This document shows, in pieces, positions 1 to 1,013 of a stretch of 48,294 nucleotides of DNA. Position 1 is the stretch's first letter. Every line of letters begins with the position of its first letter. Source of the stretch: Tannerella sp. (GTDB lineage: Bacteria > Bacteroidota > Bacteroidia > Bacteroidales > Tannerellaceae); NCBI GenBank assembly GCA_031271805.1, contig JAISUX010000117.1, positions 1 to 48,294 of the forward strand, read 5' to 3'. The notes under the pieces are model-generated. The model was given only the letters and a program-made list of their open reading frames with translations. It was not told where the DNA came from and ran no database searches. A program made the translations under genes and the position numbers.

Positions 1-598
1 TTCCCATGTAAATCATCCCGTCGAGGACTATCAACGGGTCGTTAGAGCCTGAAATGGACTTCTGACCGCGCAACTGCATCGAAGGCTGACCGCCTGCGGA
101 GTTCGTTACGCCGATGTCGAGACCCGCCACATTGCCTTTCAGTGATTCAAGGGCGTTGAGGTTGGGCGCCAGAGCTACAGGCGAGTCCTCAAGCCGCACC
201 GTTACCACCGACCCCGCAAAGTCTTTCCTCTTGGCGGTACCGTAGCCGATAATAATCACTTCCTCAAGCGCTTGAGTGTCTTCCGCAAGAGAGATTGTCA
301 GGGTCGTCCGATTAGCTACTGCTATCTCTTGCGTGATGTAGCCAATGTAAGACACACGTAACACGGCGCCCTCTTTTACCGTTAAGCGAAATTGGCCGTC
401 GGCATTCGTTATCGTGCCGTTATTTGTGCCTTTTTCGGCAATATTCGCTCCGATTACAGGTTCGCCGTCGGCATCCGTAACCGTTCCAGTCACTTGTTTC
501 TGCGCCAACGCTGTCAGCGAGAAACTCATTGCAATACATAACAAGCACAGCGCCCGTCGTAACGTACTGCTTCTAAAAAAAATAAGTTTTTTGTTCAT
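1..598 (-). CDS. SusC/RagA-like TonB-dependent outer-membrane receptor, N-terminal part (partial)
   Basis: Reading the minus strand from an ATG at 598 gives 199 codons with no stop before the window edge. Residues 1-32 form a signal peptide (basic MNKK start, hydrophobic stretch, ALA-Q cleavage). Residues about 34-110 are a carboxypeptidase-regulatory-like fold, with VTGTVTDADGEPVIGANI and later VSYIGYIT. A TonB-box-like EEVIIIGYGTAKRK follows, then the start of the plug domain (LESLKGNVAGLDI, then LIVLDGMIYM). This is the standard front end of SusC/RagA receptors, which import glycans or peptides with a SusD lipoprotein partner. The partner would lie outside the window. No consensus promoter was found close to the ATG; the nearest lies about 385 nt upstream at 982-1013, leaving a long leader with a GA repeat. 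The substrate cannot be inferred. Confidence 0.93.
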   Translation of the reverse strand, partial: MNKKLIFFRSSTLRRALCLLCIAMSFSLTALAQKQVTGTVTDADGEPVIGANIAEKGTNNGTITNADGQFRLTVKEGAVLRVSYIGYITQEIAVANRTTLTISLAEDTQALEEVIIIGYGTAKRKDFAGSVVTVRLEDSPVALAPNLNALESLKGNVAGLDIGVTNSAGGQPSMQLRGQKSISGSNDPLIVLDGMIYMG

Positions 599-720
599 AA
601 AAATGTGAAATTAAAGTGAAACCTACTTATAATAAAAAAAGATGTAACAATGATATAGGAACATGCCAAACCGCAAGGGACGAAAATTTCCGCCCCTTGT
701 TGGAGTCTTGCAATGACATG

Positions 721-750
721 ATACATGAAAAAACCATGTTTTTCATGTAT
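721..750. promoter_or_regulatory. Perfect 12-bp inverted repeat in the susC-like leader
   Basis: ATACATGAAAAA (721-732) pairs perfectly with TTTTTCATGTAT (739-750) around a 6-nt loop. It sits between the GA repeat and the susC-like start codon. As RNA it would be a 12-bp A/U-rich hairpin, too poor in G and C for a typical terminator. It could be a protein-binding palindrome or a leader structure. Function is unknown. Confidence 0.5.
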
Positions 751-769
751 TCCATAGTAAATAATGTGA

Positions 770-961
770 TTAGTTCTCTCTCTCTCTCTCTCTCTCTCTC
801 TCTCTCTCTCTCTCTAAGATAAAATCGCGTACAAACAAATTATTTTCCTTAAAAAAAATTAAAGAAACATCATTTCCACAAGTCTTCAAAGCCAAATCTG
901 AAAGACCCGAAAGGAAATACATAATATTGTTTTGCAGGCAATTAGCAGTAATCATAGACAT
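770..961 (-). CDS. Possible small upstream ORF containing the GA repeat (63 codons)
   Basis: The ATG at 961 lies about 20 nt downstream of the predicted -7 box at 982-989, so it would be the first start codon on the transcript. The product has no recognised domain: about 48 ordinary residues, then an alternating Glu-Arg run encoded by the repeat, then a stop at 770. Changing the repeat length changes where this ORF ends. Loss of one unit extends it to a TAA at 627. Gain of one unit (or loss of two) extends it to a TGA at 595-597 that overlaps the susC-like ATG as ATGA. In the present sequence it stops 171 nt before that ATG. Whether it is translated is unknown. Confidence 0.3.
   Translation of the reverse strand: MSMITANCLQNNIMYFLSGLSDLALKTCGNDVSLIFFKENNLFVRDFILEREREREREREREN
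775..815. repeat. Dinucleotide microsatellite, (TC)20 on plus, (GA)20 on minus
   Basis: There are 41 nt of uninterrupted alternating T and C. On the minus strand, the direction of the susC-like gene, it reads GAGAGA. It begins 177 nt upstream of the susC-like ATG and downstream of the predicted promoter, so it would be transcribed. Long perfect dinucleotide runs are prone to slipped-strand length change and are a classic basis of phase variation. It lies inside the small upstream ORF at 770-961, where it encodes alternating Glu-Arg. Confidence 0.95.
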
Positions 962-981
962 TTGTTAGTAAAATCAGTCTG

Positions 982-1013
982 CAAATATAACTACCTTTTA
1001 TTAATTATCCAAA
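982..1013 (-). promoter_or_regulatory. Bacteroidota-type promoter for the susC-like transcript
   Basis: On the minus strand TTTG (1013-1010) is followed after exactly 20 nt by TATATTTG (989-982), matching the Bacteroidota -33/-7 consensus. It starts 24 nt downstream of the gcvPB stop codon and points toward the susC-like gene. The rest of the 438-base gene-free stretch 599-1036 holds the upstream ORF, the GA repeat and the hairpin; I see no second consensus promoter there. Confidence 0.7.

Follow-up and report, generated by a model that had tools for sequence, protein, structure and literature searches.

In classical contingency loci repeats slip inside the coding open reading frame (ORF), and the repeat number shifts the frame. 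The GAA repeat of Mycoplasma gallisepticum vlhA is located upstream of many surface-protein genes and acts on transcription initiation. For pil1 of Streptococcus gallolyticus the published work describes GCAGA repeats in a leader ORF, where translation of the leader controls a hairpin attenuator, as supported by mutants; out-of-frame changes of the repeat in either direction lead to the high state (PMC3894217). SusC/SusD of Bacteroides fragilis show phase variation driven by an invertase (Nakayama-Imaohji 2009, cited in PMC11868660), and the Bacteroides cases in the accessible sections of that review on phase variation are invertase-mediated. Among the matches listed in our literature search, judged by titles and the beginnings of abstracts and with subscription papers and bioRxiv preprints poorly covered, there was no report of a leader switch of this kind in Bacteroidota.

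The locus described here lies at one end of the window, i.e. the whole stretch of 48,294 nucleotides that was analysed. As far as the accessible text on S. gallolyticus pil1 and pil3 goes (PMC3894217), the design is similar: short repeats are located in a leader ORF that has a promoter of its own, reading in one frame terminates ahead of a hairpin and in the shifted frames inside or beyond it, and the downstream genes encode surface proteins, with expression that would be stochastic by design; in our case this is read from the sequence. Unlike the GCAGA repeats of S. gallolyticus, the tracts consist of the dinucleotide GA or CT, they are found in another phylum and number tens of loci in some genomes. 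Further differences from the accessible description are that a canonical terminator-like hairpin is present in a minority of loci, that the stop of the long frame often coincides with the gene start, that one leader class carries a covarying hairpin before the tract and that the genes concerned encode SusC receptors, HU-like proteins, sigma factors and lipoproteins.

As portrayed in the accessible part of the review, the inversions of B. fragilis put the same receptor class under stochastic control. Yet the switch there is DNA inversion, whereas here it would be repeat slippage; only short inverted repeats enclose the promoter of the window, namely two 10-nt pairs with 90% identity (661-670/1101-1110 and 728-737/1019-1028), and an 18-nt pair with 72% identity touches the promoter edge (all within the region 560-1140 and listed without a chance level). 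Like in classical contingency loci, one tract of the genome (G000:C82, L353) is inside the receptor ORF, at its very start, and the long frame runs through the tract for at least 600 nt in 12 of 162 loci of the genus. In contrast, the tract of the window is outside the receptor gene: the susC ORF begins at 598, while the tract, which ends at 775, belongs to the separate leader ORF. As in M. gallisepticum vlhA, many loci have a repeat ahead of genes for surface proteins, but here the tract is located downstream of the promoter, within the leader ORF.

Judging from the comparisons below, we consider it probable that the translated leader is a phase-variation switch operated by slipped-strand changes of the repeat. 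If true, such a leader switch would be a second, independent route to receptor phase variation in the phylum. It would also point to the S. gallolyticus design as a recurrent solution, and to regulators such as ECF sigma factors and HU-like proteins as genes that can come under the same random control.

The leader of the susC-like gene in the window

The susC-like ORF extends from 598 to the contig end and encodes CarboxypepD_reg-like domains. The N-terminus of the receptor matched TIGR04056 with an E-value of 1.4e-56 over positions 1-163; because the contig ends, the score stays below the whole-protein cut-off. The promoter, which we named by what we take to be the Bacteroidales consensus, is on the minus strand downstream of the glycine dehydrogenase gene (1037-2461). 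The original prediction had placed it in front of a first ATG at 961 opening a small ORF with (GA)20, and all of these elements were found exactly there on the minus strand (Table 1). The promoter box precedes the start of the tract, called by TRF as 775-815 with 20.5 units, by about 168 nt.

Table 1. Features of the leader and receptor gene in the window; n is the number of GA units
Feature	Position	Strand	Details
Promoter, Bacteroidales-type	982..1013	-	TTTG 1013-1010, 20-nt spacer, TATATTTG 989-982
Leader ORF at n=20, 63 codons	770..961	-	ATG 961-959, stop 772-770; predicted OFF frame
(GA)20 microsatellite in leader ORF, Glu-Arg repeats	775..814	-	
Hairpin A, 12-bp perfect inverted repeat, downstream of tract	721..750	-	
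Hairpin B, stem-loop CAAGGGGCGGAAATTTTCGTCCCTTG, without U-tract directly after	674..699	-	
Stop of second open frame, past both hairpins, about 30 nt before susC start	627..629	-	n=19, 22
Stop of third open frame, overlaps susC ATG as ATGA	595..597	-	n=18, 21
SusC/RagA-like TonB-linked receptor gene, 5' part, cut by contig end	2..598	-	199 aa

The leader was read with 14 to 27 GA units. With n = 14, 17, 20, 23 and 26 it stops at 770, as had been read for the present repeat number. With n = 16, 19, 22 and 25 the stop is at 629-627, and with n = 15, 18, 21, 24 and 27 it is at 597-595, where it forms ATGA with the susC ATG at 598-596. Both alternative endings had been foreseen, and gain of one GA or loss of two indeed leads into the ATGA frame (n=21 and n=18). 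A stop that abuts or overlaps the susC start, the mark of a coupled pair, is found at these last five repeat numbers and not at the assembled n=20. The ATGA overlaps that had been pointed out elsewhere in the window are the 4-nt overlaps of the ORFs 7984-8730, 8727-10118, 10115-11224 and 11221-12435.

The 176 nt between tract and susC folded with -37.4 kcal/mol (z -3.29 against dinucleotide shuffles). The n=20 frame ends before both hairpins, while the other two frames cross both. A terminator scan of the minus strand of window positions 1-1200 detected no intrinsic terminator, i.e. no stem with a U-tract. The two hairpins between tract and susC had not figured in the original prediction.

Tracts, leader plan and reading frames in the genus

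The genome of the window comprises 3.07 Mb in 138 contigs and is 86% complete; the genomes used for comparison are drafts. GA/CT tracts of at least 6 units were found at seven loci of this genome, each of them adjoining a susC-like gene at its 5' end. TIGR04056 places number 56 in this genome, and the target zone of susC starts, taken as 500 nt each, covers about 0.9% of it by our own arithmetic. Because the target zone is this small, the location of all seven loci is far from chance. In five of them the tract belongs to a leader that precedes the gene; at one of these five the coding strand carries CT. Beside the fused locus mentioned above, the remaining one (G000:C37, L012) lies at the edge of a contig and has two adjacent runs; its tract immediately precedes the signal peptide. 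Among named relatives, the best for the window receptor were 'Tannerella sp.' metagenome-assembled genomes (MAGs), with isolate Im510_bin93 first; these MAGs presumably derive from termite guts. A tract of at least 6 units was present in 9 of the 80 loci of named relatives that were kept.

Tracts of at least 8 units were common in the genus: those ending in G occurred in 24 of 41 genomes and those ending in A in at least 29 of 41. In the family, tracts of at least 9 units ending in A were detected in 32 of 123 genomes, and in 3 of the 82 outside the genus. One of the loci outside the genus (L357) combines the promoter box, a hairpin of the T1 type described below and a GA tract.

For the analysis of leaders we collected 237 distinct tracts of at least 8 units from most of the listed places in the 41 genus genomes, with a few at contig ends left out. 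A promoter box, a leader ATG and a frame open through the tract were present at 183 of them. This plan, a TAnnTTTG box and then an ATG, was on the GA strand in 127 cases, on the CT strand in 53 and on both in 3. Of the 54 tracts lacking promoter and leader on either strand, 30 have less than 200 nt on one side and 24 do not. When the box was searched without selection for an ORF, it peaked 101-140 nt upstream of the tracts (103 occurrences at 197 GA-strand tracts). Among 130 GA leaders the ATG was at -81 in 44 and at -78 in 15, and its distance from the tract was a multiple of three in 104; thus the tract is mostly read as Glu-Arg. In 64 leaders picked by nucleotide motif alone the ATG was at exactly -81 in 40, and frame 0 was stop-free in 53. 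Downstream of the tract, before the gene, the box was seen in 6 of 110 cases, which is below the 12% of shuffles, and an additional promoter in this interval was therefore rejected.

A conserved functional peptide was not supported as the purpose of the leader, as the differences were spread evenly over the codon positions. They amounted to 0.257/0.291/0.283 for T1 and 0.122/0.100/0.109 for T3 leaders, determined on pairs with at least 45% amino-acid identity only. Because there is no codon-position bias, start, frame and RNA rather than the peptide appear to be kept.

The reading frames after the tract were assayed in separate leaders over a 150-nt stretch wholly before the gene, and a frame was called open at 147 nt or more. 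At 102 GA loci the long frame was open in 90% (21% in shuffles, 31% on the antisense strand) and the middle frame in 29% (1% in shuffles). The corresponding values for 37 CT loci were 97% (shuffles 36%, antisense 59%) and 65% (shuffles 5%, antisense 0%); related loci are not independent of each other in these statistics or in those on hairpins below. Inclusion of fused loci hardly altered the picture, with long and middle frames open in 89% and 30% of 118 GA loci and in 96% and 63% of 46 CT loci. The median stop of the shortest frame, fused loci included, was 14.5 nt after the tract for GA and 3.5 nt for CT.

As a control we inspected susC genes without tracts. Over -160 to -40, an open frame was present in 39% of 18 untracted genes, all from this genome, versus 94% of 32 tract susC loci taken genus-wide; two open frames were present in none versus 38%. 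The 18 genes, a few with doubtful starts, were the usable ones of 30 fetched, 10 of the others having no usable ATG and 2 carrying tracts. The original prediction that the repeat number sets the frame of the leader was borne out in so far as related loci of the genus keep the frames after the tract open, and frame switching by repeat number is well supported. The signature after the tract, one short frame with one or two long ones, offers an easy way to screen other genomes for such switches.

The repeat numbers as assembled placed 46, 39 and 33 GA loci in the short, middle and long frame, respectively. At CT loci the short frame dominated with 31 versus 9 and 6, a skew that stems mostly from the single genome G014. 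Here, 28 of 32 separate loci were in the short frame (the G014 loci are among L191-L218, L271-L288, L023 and L044; one locus has two tracts), with a binomial p of 3e-10 against an expected third, which serves as a guide only because of kinship among the loci. Outside G014 the short, putatively OFF frame was found in 42 of 118 loci, i.e. at chance level.

Hairpins, stop positions and the proposed switch

Of 184 unique leaders 22 were dropped for want of 250 nt downstream, leaving 162 loci, 150 of them with a separate leader. The best hairpin between tract and gene in these 150 had a median of -19.4 kcal/mol compared with -12.9 kcal/mol after shuffling. A hairpin below -12 was present at 138 loci; the short frame ended before it in 132, the long frame reached it in 132, and the middle frame did so in 69. 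Both rules together, short frame before and long frame past the hairpin, applied to 126 of 138 loci (91%) versus 45% of 175 shuffles that had such a hairpin, and 12 loci broke them. The short-frame rule by itself is uninformative, being obeyed by 91% of shuffles too, while the long-frame rule, at 53% of shuffles, carries the signal.

Terminator-like hairpins were detected in 42 of the 150 leaders on the sense strand, in 26 of 150 on the antisense strand and in 42 of 600 shuffles. At 41 of the 42 sense loci the short frame stops before and the long frame past the start of the hairpin. U-tails after hairpins were weakly enriched (21% versus 12% of shuffles). Canonical terminators as the sole cause were rejected, as only those 42 loci carry them.

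We propose the following mechanism. The promoter would give rise to a transcript whose first ORF runs into the (GA)n tract, and a change of n would shift the reading frame behind it. In the OFF frame, predicted to be that of n=20 as assembled, the ribosome would stop right after the tract and leave about 170 nt of structured leader untranslated. This may end transcription early, by a terminator hairpin at some loci and probably by Rho-dependent polarity at others, and/or keep the receptor start closed. In the ON frame or frames ribosomes would traverse the hairpins, and the receptor gene would be expressed. Terminal coupling probably contributes further to expression where the leader stop meets or overlaps the receptor start. 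We infer that n changes within the population and that it is ribosome passage that turns the gene on.

According to the original prediction only the ATGA frame would bring ribosomes to the receptor. As a general rule this was not supported, since two of the three frames reach a strong hairpin in half of the loci that have one (69 of 138, see above). Crossing of the hairpin region is probably a commoner factor than arrival at the start codon alone; because of this, n=19 and n=22 may also be ON in the window. Applied to the window, the attenuation model predicts OFF for n=20 and ON for n=18, 19, 21 and 22. Because no terminator was found on that strand, attenuation would need Rho or another route there.

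If terminal translational coupling were the only mechanism, ribosomes in the ATGA frame would re-initiate at susC, and only n=18 and 21 would be ON here. In fact, the position of the long-frame stop correlates with the gene start (rho 0.62 at 111 loci), the stop falls within -30 to +5 nt of the start in 41% of these loci as opposed to 16% on permutation, and an exact ATGA is present in 16 of them, compared with 0.5% on permutation. To this extent the prediction of coupling at the start codon stood. Yet ATGA is a likely stop wherever an open frame meets a start codon with an A behind it. Where tract and gene are more than 300 nt apart, the long frame usually ends too early for coupling and away from the gene: it ended within -60 to +40 in 30% of 27 and 17% of 23 loci. 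Moreover, second open frames are kept too, and strong hairpins are located between tract and gene. A comparison of related strains for a conserved ATGA with varying repeat number had been suggested as well. The exact overlap was present at the 16 loci, and n differed in 6 of 8 pairs with near-identical flanks, which are mostly paralogues within one genome and not alleles. Taken together, we regard coupling as the sole mechanism as unlikely and favor the view that a switch of the leader frame governs passage through the hairpin region, with coupling as a probable addition.

An action of the tract at the level of DNA or RNA, via spacing, mRNA stability or protein binding and with the reading frame irrelevant, would agree with leader variation being even over codon positions and with the covarying RNA hairpin just before the tract in one leader class. 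But it leaves unexplained the open frames after the tract as well as the fixed ATG at -81 and the stop-free frame 0 of the motif-picked leaders, and the promoter box does not contain the tract, which follows well downstream. We deem this explanation very improbable. Slippage by itself creates dinucleotide runs, and 17 of 41 genus genomes have CA runs of nine units; that the tract is a functionless microsatellite arisen by chance is nevertheless scarcely credible in view of the susC starts at all seven tract loci of this genome and of the genus-wide regularities of promoter, ATG and frame.

Target genes and the T1 leader class

A downstream ORF was identified at 141 of the 162 loci, while 21 had no downstream gene; at least 6 of the 141 downstream 'genes' are the long leader frame itself (L152, L293, L294, L302, L304, L312). 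The susC queries matched 73 of the 162 loci. With Pfam run on cluster representatives only, the other targets grouped into 14 HU-DNA_bdg/DUF4469, 10 without a Pfam match, 8 HU-HIG, 5 ECF sigma factors (plus L144) and 4 with TIG domains; a BspA-like protein and lipoproteins were also among the targets. After susC, HU-like proteins (L146, L288 and 20 clustered loci) rank second in frequency among the targets. ECF sigma factors are encoded behind tract leaders at L144:893-1426, L145:1663-2244 and L286:1247-1789, which would make whole regulons phase variable. A protein family starting with MFYTRINKIKVFNNREGFLG is located behind CT leaders (L192:1071-1787 and nine relatives); its representative had no Pfam match.

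The leaders of class T1 carry an RNA hairpin (TTAATTAAC...GTTGGTTAA) that ends about 15 nt before the GA tract. Alignment A1 contains 33 of 35 rows (L342, L297 and 31 others), L265 not being T1 and L339 being a repeat of L146. The hairpin has 14 pairs; 95% of the cells of the 33 leaders are paired, and 7 pairs are changed on both sides. The covariation score was 0.336 compared with 0.03-0.08 for slid controls. The hairpin model R1 matched 93 times across 23 of the 123 family genomes and had no match in the genome of the window, whose own leader is not of the T1 class. The exact motif was present in 25 of 30 fetched matches, and each of these 25 continued into a GA repeat of roughly three or more units. 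Four loci compared with Rfam had no match at E-values up to 0.1.

It is possible, and we put it forward tentatively, that these cassettes constitute a genus-wide switchboard. Some genomes would then hold tens of promoter-leader-tract cassettes in which the frame decides on ribosome clearance of the hairpin region and on the hand-over to the gene, so that receptors, HU-like proteins and sigma factors would be set ON or OFF independently. In at least one genome nearly all examined loci would be OFF, and the covarying T1 hairpin may add a regulated input.

CA tracts may serve the same role as GA and CT tracts. The sides of tracts were close to contig edges more often than expected from neighboring distances, with 25 of 340 at less than 100 nt and 9, 6, 9, 11 and 10 in the next bins. 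This excess is compatible with mixed repeat lengths and also with assembly trouble, and we give it little weight. Among the individual loci, one leader (L249, G008:C101) contains a compound CA plus GA tract, and at L223 AGTGATGCTATCAGTGA-like repeats are located directly 3' of the CT tract.
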